NCBI GenBank assembly: GCA_015491865.1
Contig: WFVD01000015.1
Span: 186,001-250,000, forward strand
Length of the DNA stretch: 64,000 nucleotides
Direction of reading: 5' to 3'
DNA from: Gammaproteobacteria bacterium
GTDB taxonomy: Bacteria > Pseudomonadota > Gammaproteobacteria > SZUA-140
Part shown: one piece after another, positions 1-48,347 of the stretch
Layout of the letters: the number at the start of each line of letters is the position of its first letter
Numbering within the stretch: the first letter of the stretch is position 1
Translations under genes and position numbers: made by a program
Notes under the pieces: model-generated
Told to the model about the DNA's origin: nothing
What the model saw: only the letters and a program-made list of their open reading frames with translations
The model's database searches: none

Positions 1-1987
1 CCGCCCCGTTAAGGCTGCTGACCCTGAGCACACAGGAGCCATCATTTCCCTCAAAGCGATCCGAAGATGGGTGCACTATTTCAAACAGCACTCCATCCCG
101 TTGCCACTGCTGCCCCTTTACACAGCGCTGTGCGCCATGTTGCCAGCTTACTTTTTGCGGTACGCTGGTGATGATCTGTTTCACTTCGATCTGTTCAATC
201 ACTGAGCGTGCGCCCCCCATGTGATCATTATCGCCGTGGCCGATGATCAACGTCTCCACCTTATCGATACCGACGCTATTTAAAAAAGGAACCACCACTG
301 CGCTGCCGGTATCAAAACTGCTGCTGTATCGCGGCCCGGTATCATAGATCAGCGTATATTTCTGCGTCTGCACCACCGCTGCCAGCCCTTGGCCGACATC
401 CAGCAATGTAAACCACCACTCTCCATCAGCTGGGCGCTGTGGTGTGATAAGAAACAGCGGCAGCAGCCAGAGGGTGCCGAGCCAGCGCCCCGGAATCCCA
501 CGCGGGGATAACAGCAACAGGACACCAATCAATGCGGGTAACAGTGTCCAGCTGGCTGGCGGATGCTGCTGCCACAACCCTTGCGGCTGTGCTGCAAGTG
601 ATTCGAGCAGTGGCCACATCCAGCCTAGTGCGCTCGATGCGGCATTAAGCAGCATCGCACCGACATCCGGCAAGAGCAGCGTCATCGCAGTACCGAGTAG
701 TACCAGTGGCACTACACAAAAACTGACCCACGGCACTGCAATGAAGTTAGCTACTGGCGACAGCAGTGGAAATTGCTGAAAGGTCATTAACAGCAGCGGC
801 AGTAGCGCCACGGCCACAATCAGATGCACTCTGCCCCAGCGCCACCAGAGCTCATGTGCCCTGTTTGTAGCTGCTCGCCGGTTCATCCGCCCACTCATCG
901 CAAAGATGATCGCCGCCACCGCTGCGAATGAGAGCCAGAAACCGGTGGACATCACGACAAATGGATCGATCACCAGAACGATCATCAGCGCCAGCGCGAT
1001 TGTATCGCTAAAACGCCGTTGGCGTTGAAGCAGTAGCATCAACATCACGATAGCCACCATCACCAGCGCACGCTGTGTCGGTATCGTAAAACCCGCTAGC
1101 GTGGCATAAAATGTCGCTGCCAGTAACCCCGCCACCGCAGCGACCCGCGGTGCTGGCCAGTGTAGCGTCGCACTGGCGATGCGAGGCCACAGCCACTGCG
1201 TCAGGAAAAAGACCATGCCTGCAACCAGCCCGATATGTAGCCCGGAGATGGCAACCAGATGAATGGTGCCGCTCTTGCGCAACACCTCCCACTGCGGCTG
1301 CGTGATCGCCTGCCGTTCACCGATCGCCAGCGCCATCACGATACCCTTGAAGTCTGGCTGTTCAAGCTGGTCAGTGATCGCATCCGCCAGCGATTGACGC
1401 ATGCGCTGCACGGGATAAGAGAGGCGATCACTTGATAGCAAGCGGTTATCTGCTGAGGTGCGCACATAACCTGTCGCCCCTATTCGCTGCTGGAAGAGCC
1501 ACCCTTCGTAGTCAAAACCACCAGGGTTCATAAAACCGTGAGGCCTTTTGAGTCTCACAGTTAACTGCCATCGGTCACCAACATTGAGTAGAGGCGCACT
1601 ACCGTACCAGTTTATTCTGACACGCTGTGGTGACTCATCAAGGGGCTGACCATTGTGCTGCATCCTCTCAACATCAAATAGAAAACGCCACCGTCGCCCC
1701 TGCTGCTGTGGGATAGATGCAATCGCTCCCTGTATTAAAAGATCTTCCCTTTCAAGGTCGGCAGGCAGGCCGCCTGCCAGCAGCAGGCTTGCCTGTAGCA
1801 GTGCCCAGTGGAAGCCAGCGACTGCAAATAGCAGCGGACGCAGCGGCGCGACAAAATATGCACATACGATGGCAAGCAGTAACAGTACAACCCAAAGTGC
1901 CAGCCGAGTAGATGAGACCTGAGGCAGTTCAGCAAGCTGCTGAAACAGCAAAATCCCACATAAAAATGCGATGGCTCCAAGACGCAT
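1..1987 (-). CDS. comEC: DNA internalization channel protein ComEC/Rec2 (3' end cut by window)
   Basis: An open frame of about 662 codons begins at the ATG at 1987, behind an AGGGAAGA ribosome site, and runs off the left edge. ComEC forms the inner-membrane channel that carries single-stranded DNA into the cytoplasm during natural transformation. Seen: a hydrophobic N-terminus, a DUF4131-like segment, a multi-helix competence domain (about residues 190-450, including SGLHIGL near 245) and a metallo-beta-lactamase-like C-terminal domain with LLDVGQG and HGDNDHMGG (near residue 581). The last motif is the nuclease-like signature of the family. The gene is divergent from the DUF2062 gene. No other competence genes are in view, so competence is not shown. 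The missing 3' end is probably short, since family members are about 750 residues. Confidence 0.93.
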   Translation of the reverse strand, partial: MRLGAIAFLCGILLFQQLAELPQVSSTRLALWVVLLLLAIVCAYFVAPLRPLLFAVAGFHWALLQASLLLAGGLPADLEREDLLIQGAIASIPQQQGRRWRFLFDVERMQHNGQPLDESPQRVRINWYGSAPLLNVGDRWQLTVRLKRPHGFMNPGGFDYEGWLFQQRIGATGYVRTSADNRLLSSDRLSYPVQRMRQSLADAITDQLEQPDFKGIVMALAIGERQAITQPQWEVLRKSGTIHLVAISGLHIGLVAGMVFFLTQWLWPRIASATLHWPAPRVAAVAGLLAATFYATLAGFTIPTQRALVMVAIVMLMLLLQRQRRFSDTIALALMIVLVIDPFVVMSTGFWLSFAAVAAIIFAMSGRMNRRAATNRAHELWWRWGRVHLIVAVALLPLLLMTFQQFPLLSPVANFIAVPWVSFCVVPLVLLGTAMTLLLPDVGAMLLNAASSALGWMWPLLESLAAQPQGLWQQHPPASWTLLPALIGVLLLLSPRGIPGRWLGTLWLLPLFLITPQRPADGEWWFTLLDVGQGLAAVVQTQKYTLIYDTGPRYSSSFDTGSAVVVPFLNSVGIDKVETLIIGHGDNDHMGGARSVIEQIEVKQIITSVPQKVSWQHGAQRCVKGQQWQRDGVLFEIVHPSSDRFEGNDGSCVLRVSSLNGA

Positions 1988-22489: not shown

Positions 22490-23989
22490 TTACTTTTGTG
22501 GTCGCATGTGCGGAAACAGCAGCACATCGCGAATAGAAGGTGAGTCGGTAAAGAGCATCACCAGGCGATCAATCCCGATCCCCTCTCCAGCGGTCGGTGG
22601 CATGCCGTGTTCCAGCGCACAGATGTAGTCTTCATCAAAATGCATCGCCTCATCATCCCCCGCCGCCTTCTCTGCCAGTTGCTGCCGAAAACGTTCGGCC
22701 TGATCTTCCGCATCATTTAACTCGGTAAAGCCGTTGGCGATTTCGCGCCCGCCGATAAAGAGCTCAAAACGGTCGGTGATAGAGGGATCATCATCATTGC
22801 GCCTTGCCAGCGGGGATACTTCAGTTGGGTATGCGGTGATAAAGGTTGGATCAACCAGACGAGGTTCAACGCTCTTCTCAAAGATCTCGATCTGTAGCTT
22901 GCCGACACCATAACTCGCCTTCACCGGAATAGAAAGACGCTCCGCTATTGCACGCAGGCTATCGATTGATTCCAGCGCTTCCGCCTGGATATCCGCATTA
23001 TAATGAAGAATCGAATCTTTCACTGACATCCGGGTAAACGGTTTACCGAAGTCATATTCATCACCCTGATAGGTGATGACCGTGCTACCTATCACCGTTT
23101 CAGCAATCCCGCGAAACAGTGTCTCACTAAGATCCATTAAATCATGATAATCCGCATAGGCCTGATAAAACTCCAGCATGGTAAACTCAGGGTTGTGTCG
23201 CGTTGAAAGCCCTTCGTTACGGAAATTACGATTGATCTCAAACACGCGCTCAAACCCGCCCACGACTAGCCGCTTCAGGTAGAGCTCTGGTGCAATGCGC
23301 AGGTAGAGATCGATATCCAGCGCATTGTGGTAGGTCTCAAACGGGCGCGCCGTTGCCCCGCCCGGTACAACCTGCATCATCGGTGTTTCGACTTCCAGGA
23401 AATCACGCTCAATTAGAAAGTGCCGAATATAGCTAACGATCCGGGTGCGGATACGAAAGGTGTCGCGTGTCGGCTCATTCATGATCAGATCAAGGTAGCG
23501 CTGACGATAGCGTATCTCCTGATCTGTCACTCCATGATATTTTTCAGGCAGTGGGCGTAGCGCTTTGGTTAACAGGCGAACGCTATCTGCGCGCACAGAC
23601 AGCTCACCGGTTCTGGTTTTGAATAGCGTCCCTTCAACACCGATGATGTCTCCGATATCCCAGCGTTTAAAGGCCTGGTACTCATCAATACCGATCACAT
23701 CGCGCTGCACATAGAGCTGCATCTTGCCAGACATATCCTGCAGGTGAACAAAGCTCGCCTTACCCATCATGCGGCGTGTCATGATGCGCCCGGCAATTTT
23801 CACACGAATCGCTGCTGATTCCAGCGCATCATTCTCCCGCTCACCATATTCAGCATGCAGCTCACCAGCTACCACATTACGGCGAAAGTCACATGGAAAG
23901 GGGTTCCCCTGCTCACGCAACTGCGTTAATTTTGCCCGACGCTGAGCAATCTGCTCCTGCTCTTCTGCCTGTTGTGCTTGTTCACTCAT
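22490..23989 (-). CDS. lysS: Lysyl-tRNA synthetase (class II)
   Basis: A 499-residue class II enzyme: an N-terminal OB-fold anticodon-binding domain (about residues 60-170, [20 protein letters not shown]) and a catalytic core with [15 protein letters not shown], a motif 2 region [20 protein letters not shown] and motif 3 [16 protein letters not shown]. It is encoded downstream of prfB, the conserved bacterial pairing. Confidence 0.98.
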
Positions 23990-24052
23990 CTCAATAAATC
24001 CCAGCCATTAAATAAAAAACAGTCCCTTTTATAACCCCTTTATCCCAAAAGC

Positions 24053-25373: not shown

Positions 25374-25955
25374 ATGAAACGAAATAACAGAGGTTTTCGC
25401 TCTACAGAAAAAGGAGTCGCCTCCAGTTCGCCATTTTTCTGGCAACCCATATTCTATCACCTCGCCACGCTCTTGCTAGCAGCCTGCCTGATGCTGATGC
25501 ACACCAGTACATACGCCAGTGGTTATAGCCTGATCATCAATGGTAAAGCCTTTCATAAAGAACAACCTAAAACAGGTGCCTTTAATGAAAAGAACTGGGG
25601 ATTAGGGCTTCAGTACGATTACAGCCTCTATAAAAAACACTGGGTTCCCTACCTAACAATCAGTGGCTTCAAAGACTCTTTTAAACGAAACTCTTTTTAT
25701 GCAGGTGGTGGCATGATGCGGCGCTTCACAGTTGCCAACAGCTATCGTGACCTCAACTTTGATGCAGGCATTGTCGCATTCTTTATGACTCGCAAAGATC
25801 ACAAAAACGGCCGCCCTTTTTTTGGCATGCTTCCCGCATTCTCTGTTGGTGCTGATAACATTGCACTCAACATCAGTTATGTTCCTAAAGTTGCACCCAA
25901 GCTGGTCCCTTTATGGTTTATTCAGCTTAAGCTCTCCTTTGAAAACTTCAACTAA
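25374..25955 (+). CDS. Hypothetical exported beta-barrel-like protein
   Basis: A 193-residue protein of unrecognised family. Residues about 1-50 include a polar lead and a hydrophobic signal segment (LATLLLAACLMLMHTSTYA). The mature part has alternating aromatic strands (NWGLGLQYDYSLY, WVPYLTISGFKD, SFYAGGGMMRRF, FGMLPAFSVGADNIALNISYVPK) and ends in LSFENFN. This resembles small outer-membrane beta-barrels such as PagP or PagL-type lipid A modifiers, but no catalytic motif was identified. The gene stands alone between prfB and the cold-shock gene. The start may lie further in, because the first 20 residues are unusual for a signal peptide. Confidence 0.55.
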   Translation: MKRNNRGFRSTEKGVASSSPFFWQPIFYHLATLLLAACLMLMHTSTYASGYSLIINGKAFHKEQPKTGAFNEKNWGLGLQYDYSLYKKHWVPYLTISGFKDSFKRNSFYAGGGMMRRFTVANSYRDLNFDAGIVAFFMTRKDHKNGRPFFGMLPAFSVGADNIALNISYVPKVAPKLVPLWFIQLKLSFENFN

Positions 25956-26117
25956 AAGCAACAGATTAGATACTTCATTCGTTGCCAGATAAGAAGTTCA
26001 CATTTTATAAGGAAATAGGTACACTCGACCGTAGTGGCGCTTTTATAGTGCGCGCAATATGCGCTCAATGCATATGCACATTGCTTTAGAAAACTTTATA
26101 GAATAGAGGTTAATGAC

Positions 26118-26324
26118 ATGGTTACAGGTACAGTTAAATGGTTTAACGAATCCAAAGGCTTCGGCTTTATCACCCCAGCAGATGGTAGTGCAGATGTATT
26201 TGTTCACTTCTCTGCCATCGCCGGCGATGGTTTCAAAACCCTTGCAGAAGGGCAGGCAGTCAGCTTCAATGTTGAAGATGGCCCTAAAGGTCTGCAAGCA
26301 ACACAGGTTTCCGCTGAAAGCTAA
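26118..26324 (+). CDS. Cold-shock domain protein (CspA family)
   Basis: A 68-residue single OB-fold protein with both RNA-binding motifs, KGFGFI (RNP1) and VFVHFSAI (RNP2), after [10 protein letters not shown]. It acts as an RNA chaperone. The about 140-base upstream region contains short inverted repeats (GCGC/GCGC near 26052-26064, CAATG/CATTG near 26066) that may structure a long 5' leader, as in cspA genes. A strong terminator follows, so the gene is monocistronic. Expression in the cold is not shown by sequence. Confidence 0.95.
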
Positions 26325-26346
26325 GCAACTGTTTATCGCTTATCGG

Positions 26347-26383
26347 TGCCCTTGCGAGTTTTCCCGCAAGGGCATTTTTGTTT
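26347..26383 (+). terminator. Intrinsic terminator of the cold-shock gene
   Basis: TGCCCTTGCG and CGCAAGGGCA form a 10-bp stem with an eight-base loop, followed by TTTTTGTTTT. Confidence 0.93.
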
Positions 26384-38615: not shown

Positions 38616-41054
38616 CTAGCTAGCTAGCTGCATAATTTTTGTAAATACACTATCAAATGCCCGATCAAATAGCGGCAGTTCCTCAATAACCCTTGCGTTT
38701 CCCTGGCGGAACTCCTCCGCCAGCCCGTAATAAGATTTTTCTGCAACCACCTGGTAGCGCCAGTTCACAAAGGCGTAGTGGGTAAACTCATCCCCTTTCC
38801 AGGCCAATTTAGTGCGCCGCCTCTCCCCTTTTTCATCCTGCAGCTCAACCCACGCTCCCACTTCCAGCGCGGCAACCTGCACCGTAAATCTGTCATCTAT
38901 CCGTGGACCGTGCTCCTCTTCCTGTACAATCCCCATCGCTTCCATCATCTTTTTAAATTCGCCACTATCATTATTCTCAGACGGGGAAAGAGAGAGTTCT
39001 TCATTTTTTGTTAGCTCATCAACGGGAAGGTCAAGCTCATCCGCCAGATCCCTCAACAGGCAATCAATTTCATCAACCGGCTGCGGTTTGAGCACAGCCT
39101 CTGCCAGGGGCTGCGACGACAGGGTGGCAGTCGAAATATTTGCAATATGATAACGCTCTATCTCCTGAATAACACCCTGCATCTGCGCTTCAGTATAACC
39201 GATCATCGCCAGCCCTTCTCTTACCTCGTCGATGATCACCGGTATCACCGCTAACAGCTTTTTTTTCCCACTGGCGGTTTTCGGCGGATCCATACTCCAG
39301 ACCAGGTCGCCTATCATCTGCTCAGCACGCTGAAAGGCTTCGCTATCGCACCCCTCTTTATCGATGATGGTCGATAACACCTCACGCCAGCGACCCATCA
39401 GAAATGCCTTGATCTCTTCCGGGACCTTTCGATGCAGTAACTTCCCAGCGATTATTTCTGCAGTATTTTTATGCGCCTTCGCAGCACGACTGTTTTTCTC
39501 TGCCCTTTTACCAATCTCCTGATGAACCTGGTGAAAACCGGCATTATGCTCATCCATAAAGGCAGTCAAATCTGCCAGGCAGGTTTCAAAAAGTTCAACA
39601 TCCCCCTGAAACTCATGCATCAGACACATCACAATCGATTCAATTTTTTTATAGACCAGATCACTGCTCTTTTCACCTTCTACTACAGCATTAACCGTCT
39701 GTCCGGCAATCGTTAGCTGGTTCAATAGCACCCTTGCAGGATGCTCTTTCTGGGAGAAAAATACGCGGTCAATGATCGCTACTTTCAATACGGGAATCTG
39801 TAACCGGCCAAGCAGCGCTTTCACATTATCGGGAAGGTGCTCATCACCCATCAAGTCATCAAATATCATATTGATAACATCAATGGTCTCATCATCAAGC
39901 TGGCTTATCCCATCTGAAGAGCCACCTTCACGCCCGCTAAGCTCTGTTTTGATGTGAGCCTTTAACGCCTCACCTGACATCTCAATGCCAGACTCAAACA
40001 GCTCGTTGGTCGCCTGTAAACCAGATAGCGCCTCTATCAACTGTGGTGTGATCGGTGTTGAAACTAATGCCGCCTGCGGCACCGTCCCTGCAACAGCCTC
40101 ACCAGTAAATAGCCCTGCCAGTTGCTGGATACCCTGAAAAGCGTGAGGCAAGGGCATCTCTCCTGCAGTTATTCCCGTTCCGGCACCTTCACTAACACTA
40201 TTAGCCACTCCTTCAACAGGAGCCGTGTACGCTTGCGGCTGTTGAGTAACGCTGCCGGGTGCAGCTGCATGGGTATGATTGCTACTCCCATCCTGGGCGC
40301 TACCCTGCTGCGCTGCTCGTACAGTCGAAGGGTGGTTGACATACTCCGGTGCGGGGCTTTTTTTTACTTTTCTTTTGATCTCAGGCATGACGCCAGCCTG
40401 GGCTAAAATATCATTTAGCTCATCGTAAAGGGAGCCAATAGATTCCAGCAGGCTTCTTTCAAGGGAGCGATAGATGGCCAGCTTGACCTTGATATCAAGC
40501 TCCAGTGGCTGCAGTATCTCTTCAAAGGCACTGCAGATGGTGGCAGAACCAAAGGGCACTCTCCCTTCTTCCATGTCATGCTCAGGCAATAAGCAACTCA
40601 AACGCTGCTCCAGTGCATACAGCTCATCGCTACAGTGCTCAAATATTTTCGAGGTGATCTGCTCAACAACCAGCGACTCCTCTAATTGTGACTCTTCAAC
40701 GAGAGTCAGCGCATCATCCAGATCCTCAATGGAATCGCCATGACGATCACGTTGATTAAGTGCCTGATTAAGTAGCCTCGAATAGCTTAAATGAAACTGT
40801 CTGGCGAGGTTGTCGTGCTCACTGCGTAGCTGGCGCATTGCTTCGCTGTAGCGTTGCGCCTTGGTAAATTCATGAGTGGTCTCCATCAATTTAGTCAGAT
40901 CATTTCTCACCTGCTTGGCCAGCAGTTCAAACACTCTATCGACGTAAGTTTCAGAAGATCTCTGGCACTGTTTTATGAGCGCACGCACCCGTGAGCGAGG
41001 CAGGGTAACTCCTTGCTCTTTTTCTTCGAGAAATGGTTTTTCCTCGTCACTCAT
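38616..41054 (-). CDS. DUF1631 family protein, 812 residues
   Basis: A large, mostly helical soluble protein. The N-terminal part (about residues 20-215) is helical. A Gln/Ala-rich linker follows (about 235-320). The DUF1631 core (about 400-690) contains DLMGDEHLPDNVKALLGRLQIPVLKVAIID and HPARVLLNQL. The C-terminal end (about 730-812, VGAWVELQDEKGERRRTKLAW) resembles a PilZ-like beta-barrel without a clear RxxxR c-di-GMP motif. Function unknown; it occurs in many proteobacteria. It is followed by a lipoprotein gene and preceded by a ParA-like gene. Confidence 0.85.
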   Translation of the reverse strand: MSDEEKPFLEEKEQGVTLPRSRVRALIKQCQRSSETYVDRVFELLAKQVRNDLTKLMETTHEFTKAQRYSEAMRQLRSEHDNLARQFHLSYSRLLNQALNQRDRHGDSIEDLDDALTLVEESQLEESLVVEQITSKIFEHCSDELYALEQRLSCLLPEHDMEEGRVPFGSATICSAFEEILQPLELDIKVKLAIYRSLERSLLESIGSLYDELNDILAQAGVMPEIKRKVKKSPAPEYVNHPSTVRAAQQGSAQDGSSNHTHAAAPGSVTQQPQAYTAPVEGVANSVSEGAGTGITAGEMPLPHAFQGIQQLAGLFTGEAVAGTVPQAALVSTPITPQLIEALSGLQATNELFESGIEMSGEALKAHIKTELSGREGGSSDGISQLDDETIDVINMIFDDLMGDEHLPDNVKALLGRLQIPVLKVAIIDRVFFSQKEHPARVLLNQLTIAGQTVNAVVEGEKSSDLVYKKIESIVMCLMHEFQGDVELFETCLADLTAFMDEHNAGFHQVHQEIGKRAEKNSRAAKAHKNTAEIIAGKLLHRKVPEEIKAFLMGRWREVLSTIIDKEGCDSEAFQRAEQMIGDLVWSMDPPKTASGKKKLLAVIPVIIDEVREGLAMIGYTEAQMQGVIQEIERYHIANISTATLSSQPLAEAVLKPQPVDEIDCLLRDLADELDLPVDELTKNEELSLSPSENNDSGEFKKMMEAMGIVQEEEHGPRIDDRFTVQVAALEVGAWVELQDEKGERRRTKLAWKGDEFTHYAFVNWRYQVVAEKSYYGLAEEFRQGNARVIEELPLFDRAFDSVFTKIMQLAS

Positions 41055-45397: not shown

Positions 45398-45709
45398 TTA
45401 ATCTTCTGCGGTCGCAATTGGGCGCCATGTTCCGCTAAGCTTTTCAAGCTCACAGTCACTCAAGCGCTCCTCTCCAGCCAGCAGATCACTGGCTATCTCA
45501 ATCGGCTCACCGTTGTCATCCTGATACCCCCAGCCACCCTCACTGGTAAGATCAATTAACGTACTGGCGATATCATCGATCCGCATTGAATACTCTGCTG
45601 CCAGTTCACGTAGATCTGTCATCTGCAGATTGGCCTGTTTTTCGTCGTACGCTTCGCGCAATAACGTGATTAAAAATGGTTTAAGGGAAAGCGGTCCGTG
45701 ACGAGGCAT
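45398..45709 (-). CDS. Unrecognised small protein, tandem paralogue A
   Basis: A 103-residue acidic protein from the ATG at 45709 (GGAGA eight bases upstream). Not a family I can name. It shares a pattern with the upstream gene: EAY near the start, L..D...LA, then IRxDDI..T...L...G.W.Y, an IxI strand, and a C-terminal LSGTWRPI. The DDI block looks like a small helical domain followed by a beta-hairpin. It lies 19 bases after paralogue B on the same strand. Confidence 0.75.
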   Translation of the reverse strand: MPRHGPLSLKPFLITLLREAYDEKQANLQMTDLRELAAEYSMRIDDIASTLIDLTSEGGWGYQDDNGEPIEIASDLLAGEERLSDCELEKLSGTWRPIATAED

Positions 45710-45728
45710 TCTCAATCTCTCCGATCAT

Positions 45729-46073
45729 TTAAGCTGTCGCAACTGAATCACGTAATACGGGTCGCCATTCACCCGTAAAACCGCGCAGATCCTTTTCCTG
45801 AAGACGTGCATTCACATACAATTGATCCAGCGTCTCCCTGGTGATTTTGACTGGTGCCGAGTCTTTTATATATTGCCATTCACCATGAATACAGAGTTCA
45901 AACATCGTCACCATAATATCATCAAAGCGGATTTTGTTATCCACCGCGAGCCTATGGAAATCATCTATATTGAGCGCACCTCCCTTCATTCGATAAGCCT
46001 CTTTAGCCAGCCCCTCCAGCGCAATATCCCACTTTGGAACCTCGTCACCACCTACTATCATCGAATCACTCAC
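45729..46073 (-). CDS. Unrecognised small protein, tandem paralogue B
   Basis: A 114-residue protein. The best start is the GTG at 46073, eight bases after GAGGGG; an ATG at 46061 and a GTG at 46082 are alternatives. Motifs aligned with paralogue A: AKEAYRMKGGALNIDDFHRLA, IRFDDIMVTMFEL, HGEWQYIKDSAPVKI and DLRGFTGEWRPV. Identity between the two is low, but the order and spacing of W, DDI and WRP motifs is shared. It probably forms a two-gene unit with paralogue A, with ycgL upstream. Confidence 0.75.
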   Translation of the reverse strand: MSDSMIVGGDEVPKWDIALEGLAKEAYRMKGGALNIDDFHRLAVDNKIRFDDIMVTMFELCIHGEWQYIKDSAPVKITRETLDQLYVNARLQEKDLRGFTGEWRPVLRDSVATA

Positions 46074-46179
46074 AAGCCACACCCCTCAATACTGGAATTT
46101 CACCCATACCAAACCGTAACCACCGGCGTTACTCCCTTGCGCCTCTATCGGCAGTTTTTTGAAAAACCTGAAAAAACTA

Positions 46180-46464
46180 TCATAACTTACTATTTTCTAT
46201 GTAATTTACCGTTTCATACTTTGGTGGCGTCTGCAAATAGAAGCCGCTTTCATGGAGTGCCTTCATCACCTCAGTCACATCTGCCTGAGCAAGCTTGCGC
46301 GCCTCCGACAGCTCTAGTTCCATCACGAACTCAAGCTCCCCTAACAGGCTGGAAAGGGTTTCGGGAATAGAGGAGAGATCATCCTCCTGCCCGGCATCGC
46401 GTCTGAGATAGAGATAATAATCAGGTTTTCTTCCGCTTTTATAGACTGCACAATTTGCTCTCAT
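46180..46464 (-). CDS. ycgL: YcgL family protein
   Basis: A 94-residue protein matching the YcgL pattern: CAVYKSGRKPDYYLYLRRDAG, IPETLSSLLGELEFVMELEL, ARKLAQADVTEVMKAL and GFYLQTPPKYET. YcgL is a small alpha/beta protein of gammaproteobacteria near the minC or rnd genes, with no firmly assigned function. It is co-directional with the paralogue pair, with a 106-base gap, and lies just downstream of the proposed CsrB-like RNA. Confidence 0.9.
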   Translation of the reverse strand: MRANCAVYKSGRKPDYYLYLRRDAGQEDDLSSIPETLSSLLGELEFVMELELSEARKLAQADVTEVMKALHESGFYLQTPPKYETVNYIENSKL

Positions 46465-46549: not shown

Positions 46550-46815
46550 CATTTAAAAACAGAAAAGCGCCGCCAGGCGCTTTATCAGTAGACTTTTAGA
46601 TCTATTTTGCAGCATCCCTGCTGCTACATTCTTCCCTGTGCTGCCCGCTTAAGGGGGAATAACAGACAGCGACAACTCCGTTTGCCTGTGCGATCCTGCG
46701 TTAATGACTGACATCCCTCTCACTCCATTTTGATCCATCCATTGATGCCAGTCCCTTTGGCCTTCTTCCTGGAATAGTCCTGGTTCGACAGACTACCCAT
46801 TCATCCCATCAAATA
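46550..46815 (-). ncRNA. Candidate CsrB/RsmZ-type CsrA-sequestering small RNA
   Basis: Transcribed on the minus strand, ending in a terminator at 46564-46583. Twelve GGA motifs occur between 46615 and 46806; about three are expected by chance. Only two GGA trinucleotides lie on the other strand. Forms include CAGGATC, CAGGAAG, CAGGGAAG and AGGGAT, close to the CsrA site. GGA sits in hairpin loops at 46609-46624 (GCAGC, AGGGAT, GCTGC) and 46747-46761 (GCCA, AAGGGAC, TGGC), with a third near 46665-46688 (CAA, ACGGAG, TTG within ACAG/CTGT). No coding frame is credible. The 5' end is approximate; no promoter was identified. Confidence 0.68.
46564..46583 (-). terminator. Intrinsic terminator of the CsrB-like RNA
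   Basis: AAAGCGCC and GGCGCTTT form an 8-bp stem around a four-base loop. On the minus strand it is followed by TTTCTGTTTTT, so it terminates a transcript coming from the otherwise empty interval upstream of ycgL. Confidence 0.85.
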
Positions 46816-47018
46816 ACGACGACAGTGCTCAACACCTTATCGCTATGACAGATATATAGCGGCCACAATTCCAGACTCATGAACTCGGATATCACAGTTT
46901 TATTAAATAAACCGGTCCTGAGGATCGTACCTGGGGTAAAATAGGCGCTGGCATAATCAGCCTGATTTAAAATTATCTCCAGCGACTTCAATATGTTAAA
47001 AAAATTAGAAGTGATGTA

Positions 47019-48347
47019 ATGAGCCATTCTCCAGCTAAAATCGGTTTTGTCAGCCTCGGCTGCCCCAAAGCACTCGTCGACTCAGAACAGATCATCACCC
47101 GCCTGCGTGCCGAGGGATACGAAATCAGCGCCAGTTACGAACAGGCCGATATGGTCGTGGTGAACACCTGCGGCTTCATCGACGCAGCCATCGAAGAGTC
47201 ACTGGATGCGATTGGCGAAGCAATCAACAAAAATGGCAAAGTCATCGTCACCGGCTGCCTCGGCGCTCACGGCAACACGATTCATGAGCAATTCCCCGAT
47301 CTCCTTGCCGTAACAGGCCCACATGCCGCCCATGAGGTGATGACCGCCATCCATACACACCTGCCCCCGCTTCACGACCCTTACACCAGCCTGGTGCCGC
47401 CACAGGGCATCAAGCTCACCCCAAAACATTACGCCTACCTGAAGATCTCTGAGGGTTGCAACCATCGCTGCACTTTTTGCATCATCCCCTCACTGCGCGG
47501 TGATCTGGTGAGCCGCCCGGTCGGTGAAGTGATGCAGGAGGCAGAAAACCTCGTCAATGCCGGTGTGCGTGAGCTTCTGGTGATATCACAGGACACCAGT
47601 GCCTATGGCGTTGATACCCGCTACAGGCTCGATTTCTGGAACGGCAAACCGATGAAGACCCAGTTTCTTCCCCTGGTCGAAGCACTCGGGGAGCTCGGTG
47701 TGTGGGTGCGCCTGCACTATGTCTACCCCTACCCACATGTCGATAATCTCATTCCACTGATGGCTGAAGGCAAGATACTCCCTTACCTCGACATCCCGCT
47801 TCAGCACGCTAGCCCTTCTATATTAAAGGCGATGAAACGCCCGGCACACAGTGAAAATACACTGGAACGCATCCGAAAATGGCGCTCAATCTGCCCCGAT
47901 ATCACACTACGCAGCACCTTTGTGGTCGGCTTTCCTGGTGAAACGGAATCTGATTTCAACTACCTGCTCGATTTTATGCAGGAGGCGCAGCTCGATCGCG
48001 TCGGTGCCTTCGCCTACTCCCCTGTTACCGGTGCGGCCGCCAATACGCTGCCCAACCCCGTACCTGAAGCGATTAAAGAGGAGCGCCTGGCAGAATTCAT
48101 GGCACTTCAAGCCACTATCAGCGCTAATAAACGGCAGCAATTAATTGGCAGCGAAATGGTGGTGATTGTCGATGAGGTTAGCGAAACTGGCATCGTGGCA
48201 CGCTCAGTGGCCGACGCACCGGAGGTCGATGGGATCGTTCACATTCCGGAAATTGCAGAACTGGCTACAGGTGACTTTGTCGAGGTCAGAATCACTGGCG
48301 CAGATGAACATGATCTCTTTGCTTCGTTAATGATTGATAAGCCGTAA
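47019..48347 (+). CDS. rimO: Ribosomal protein S12 methylthiotransferase RimO
   Basis: A 442-residue radical-SAM enzyme that methylthiolates an Asp of ribosomal protein S12. N-terminal UPF0004 domain with [14 protein letters not shown] and VVNTCGFID carries Cys ligands for the auxiliary cluster. The radical SAM motif is [11 protein letters not shown] (about residues 147-157). A C-terminal TRAM domain follows (about 375-440). It is transcribed divergently from the proposed small RNA. Confidence 0.97.

Follow-up and report, generated by a model that had tools for sequence, protein, structure and literature searches.

A predicted Csr-type small RNA with repeated GGA motifs between rimO and ycgL in a gammaproteobacterial genome

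The gap between rimO and ycgL very probably contains the gene for a small RNA that sequesters CsrA and resembles CsrB and RsmZ in function, a reading drawn from sequence comparison. The predicted RNA, RNA1, is ≈295 nt long, carries 12 GGA motifs and extends from 46852 to 46555 on the minus strand (5' end approximate) of the window, the 64-kb stretch of DNA that was analyzed. In the proposed mechanism, RNA1 would be transcribed independently as a non-coding RNA, presumably under the control of UvrY, and would display some twelve GGA motifs, placed in the loops of hairpins and in single-stranded linkers. Several CsrA dimers could then be bound at once, and this sequestration would free the mRNAs that CsrA targets. 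An initial annotation of the region had proposed a CsrB/RsmZ-type regulatory RNA, and the proposal is supported by the retention of GGA motifs, by the presence of csrA and of a uvrY/gacA orthologue and by a second Csr-type RNA. RNA1 would be one of at least two Csr-type RNAs in this genome. The same annotation placed control of virulence at the locus, a suggestion for which we found no basis; nothing in the analysis bears on virulence.

Upstream of RNA1 lies its divergent neighbor rimO (47019-48347, plus strand), which encodes a radical SAM methylthiotransferase, and downstream, past the terminator, lies ycgL (46180-46464, minus strand; PF05166, 93.6 bits). Two small genes of 105 and 117 aa that belong to no Pfam family are found downstream of ycgL (45398-46082, minus strand), and other genomes of the genus have counterparts of them adjoining rimO-ycgL. 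Within 192 bases of the gap (46806-46615), a recount confirmed 12 GGA motifs on the minus strand versus 2 on the plus strand; the first bases of the twelve are at 46806, 46780, 46769, 46754, 46740, 46736, 46726, 46716, 46696, 46679, 46635 and 46617. On either strand of the whole window, only the RNA1 stretch reaches 12 GGA in 192 nt; the second-highest count, 11 per 192 nt, is found on the minus strand near 38,980. Since the stretch is purine-rich and mononucleotide shuffles of it reach 12 GGA at P ≈0.04, the count on its own is suggestive only, and taken by itself it would leave some room for a chance purine-rich intergenic sequence. Chance is refuted by conservation over seven genomes, by preferential retention of the GGA motifs and by compensatory changes, and we consider this explanation extremely improbable. 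It is conservation, rather than the GGA count, that decides.

A nucleotide search of 94 genomes (our own and its relatives) located the RNA1 stretch in five further genomes, all of the same genus. A covariance model, R1, was built on these six sequences; the conserved core that it describes (46600-46764, minus strand) scores 177 bits. Searching with R1 independently revealed a seventh, diverged copy in genome G001 (E 4e-24), and homologues are present in seven of the ten genomes of the genus. Searched in 20 genomes of the family, R1 restricted RNA1 to this one genus, and when 369 genomes sampled from the class were searched it matched in the genus only. Regions upstream of rimO scanned in 80 outside genomes contained nothing resembling RNA1; the GGA-rich stretches examined in these regions appeared to be coding sequence and were rejected. 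A weak R1 match at 23848-24035, spanning the start of a lysS-like gene and the end of a prfB-like gene, was judged to be due to chance. The sister species G002 and G005 retain rimO-ycgL and lack RNA1. In two other genomes, G004 and G007, the contig sequence diverges from the other copies just before the terminator; these copies (L006 and L008, ≈100-330) enter unrelated sequence with a common GATTGTTAACAC, and may be cut short or fused to other DNA, possibly at a mobile-element junction.

The initial annotation held that loss of the GGA motifs in relatives would speak against its reading. The motifs are instead preferentially retained: 7 of the 9 in the core are invariant in all five relatives found first, versus 24 of 154 (16%) other trinucleotides, with a permutation P of 0.0004 that is approximate because overlapping triplets are treated as independent. 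Across the seven-sequence alignment, five GGA motifs are kept in 7/7 sequences, two in 6/7 and one in 5/7. Judged from these alignments, the repeated GGA motifs of RNA1 are kept by selection. The homologues also bear on the idea that the stretch is a short protein-coding gene, for which it can be said that two of the seven have one frame free of stops across the core. Most homologues, however, have stops in every frame, and no single frame stays open throughout; moreover, single-base indels occur among the homologues and the conserved GGAs are spread over all three phases. Nor is RNA1 a leader of ycgL, even though ycgL is the next gene on the same strand, because a terminator intervenes and because the two sister species mentioned above keep rimO-ycgL without RNA1. 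A coding gene or a ycgL leader is hence a most improbable account of the stretch.

We then turn to the structure of RNA1. In the consensus fold 91.6% of cells are paired, compared with 27-44% when partners are slid one to three columns, a comparison biased in favor of structure, since six of the seven aligned sequences had supplied the model to which the alignment was fitted. Folded as a single sequence, RNA1 is of unremarkable stability (z -0.75). Among the GGA hairpins described in the initial annotation, those at 46609-46624 and 46747-46761 (both minus strand) are present and kept in relatives, whereas the one at 46665-46688 falls outside the conserved fold. The first, GCAGCA-GGGA-TGCTGC (consensus GCAGCA-RGGA-TGCTGC), has 98% of its cells paired and a loop GGA in 7/7 homologues; the second and shorter, GCCAA-AGGGA-CTGGC (consensus GCCAA-ANGGA-TTGGC), has 86% of cells paired and its loop GGA in 6/7. 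A long conserved hairpin (46636-46675, minus strand; helix 4) shows compensatory changes at 5 pairs, and its loop is GGA-free. This covarying, GGA-free hairpin would suit a conserved small RNA that belongs to some other class, such as a base-pairing RNA in which the GGA motifs are incidental or mimic Shine-Dalgarno sequences, as would the absence of a significant Rfam family for RNA1: at the gathering threshold, Rfam identified in the window only cspA (a thermoregulator 5' leader at 25954-26379, plus strand; RF01766, 94 bits) and two tRNAs. Yet GGA is by a wide margin the most conserved trinucleotide, in loops and linkers alike, and csrA, uvrY and a second Csr-type RNA share the genome, so that an RNA of another class appears improbable. 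The Csr-type reading of RNA1 is one of function. Compared with the Rfam CsrB model (RF00018), a check proposed in the initial annotation, RNA1 obtained 10.0 bits (E 2.1) against a gathering threshold of 71, and because of this difference it is classed by function rather than assigned to RF00018 by sequence.

The strong terminator claimed to follow the GGA stretch is real: an intrinsic stem-loop occupies 46583-46564 on the minus strand, and its T-rich tail, TCTGTTTTT, reaches 46555. At the other end lies a conserved -10-like element, GCTATATATCTGTC (46845-46860, minus strand), which reads GATAATA in relatives and has no good -35; a promoter consensus scan found no promoter at this element. The region upstream of RNA1 keeps the GATAATA/TATATAT -10-like element together with an A+T-rich block, and the 5' end of RNA1 is probably nearer 46850 than 46815, behind the -10-like element. 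The initial annotation had also proposed looking for a GacA-type site upstream. A search for a GacA/UvrY box gave at best 8/12 matches to TGTAAGN6CTTACA, no better than shuffles, which is not a convincing box, and the box-like motif of the second Csr-type RNA (see below) was not found near RNA1. RNA1 fits the Csr/Rsm functional class in every testable feature except the GacA box.

As for the partners of a Csr-type RNA, the genome possesses a canonical csrA of 61 aa (PF02599, 91.4 bits), the gene whose absence had been named as evidence against the reading. This csrA is just downstream of an aspartokinase gene (the aspartokinase was identified by reading only). A UvrY/GacA orthologue scores above the curated equivalog cut-off (NF007018, 306 vs 280 bits). 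No protein reaches the cut-off of 890 bits for the BarA sensor kinase (NF008318); the best match, at 455 bits, covers the hybrid-kinase part within an open frame of 1251 residues, possibly a diverged GacS/BarA.

When the whole genome was searched with RF00018, the top rank (27.9 bits, E 6.6e-6) went to a second Csr-type RNA, RNA2, at G000:C15:126902-127162 on the minus strand (L001:1501-1761). The gap that holds it is flanked by genes for a phosphate-type permease and for a UvrD/AddA-like helicase-nuclease. Copies of RNA2 are found in seven genomes of the genus (our own and six others), with 10 to 15 GGA motifs each, mostly as AAGGATG, and they carry a strong terminator. In all seven copies a TGTAGGnnTTTnCTGA-like element lies ≈197 bases upstream of the -10. 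It matches the GacA box TGTAAGN6CTTACA at 8-9/12, each match singly being no better than shuffles; we liken it to a GacA box because its position is constant in the seven copies, rather than for its match score. In G005 the RNA (L095, ≈1500-1759, minus strand) is longer and contains repeated AACAAGGATGTGGGTTT units, which suggests that RNA2 grew there by repeat duplication. A third GGA-rich candidate is located just downstream of RNA2 in G001 (L096:1821-1923); it is weakly RsmZ-like (27.1 bits versus a gathering threshold of 44) and is followed by a strong terminator-like hairpin. A weak R2 match at G000:C4:94814-94978, at the junction of an flhA-like and an flhF-like gene, was judged to be a chance hit.

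It is possible, although we hold it to be rather unlikely, that RNA1 is a lineage-specific Csr RNA, cleanly gained or lost within one genus, whose transcription does not rely on a UvrY-box-like element such as RNA2 carries. If so, different signals would reach the same pool of CsrA through the two RNAs. Because Csr RNAs change too quickly for Rfam models to detect them easily, how they are born and lost has been mapped only poorly. The genus studied here provides an aligned set of loci: seven species have RNA1, two have a clean empty site, and a second Csr RNA is also present. Should this be verified, the genus would allow comparisons, on a small scale, of how CsrA-sequestering RNAs come into being, of what persists in them (GGA motifs, hairpin loops) and of the need of each RNA for UvrY.

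Known Csr/Rsm RNAs bind CsrA via GGA motifs that sit in unstructured regions or in the loops of hairpins; they are strongly divergent even inside one bacterium, and two or more occur in most of the species studied (PMC4211561). Usually, they show no sequence conservation (PMC11882849). RNA1 resembles CsrB and CsrC of E. coli in being intergenic, in carrying numerous GGA motifs within loops and linkers (12, against 22 in CsrB and 14 in CsrC; PMC11882849), and in having an intrinsic terminator and csrA and uvrY in the genome; it differs from them in its gene neighborhood and in lacking homology at Rfam thresholds and a clear UvrY box. As with RsmX, RsmY, RsmZ and RsmW of Pseudomonas, there are several dissimilar Csr-type RNAs per genome, with GGA motifs in hairpin loops. 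RNA1 is longer than these RNAs and has no match to RF00166 (PrrB/RsmZ), a model found below threshold in the related loci of RNA2 and of the third candidate. The Pf1, Pf2 and Pf3 RNAs of Pseudoalteromonas fuliginea, which have 9 to 25 GGA motifs, are experimentally verified, whereas RNA1 is predicted; like RNA1, they were recognized by GGA motifs, promoter and terminator and are patchily distributed within a genus (PMC9927453, PMC11882849).
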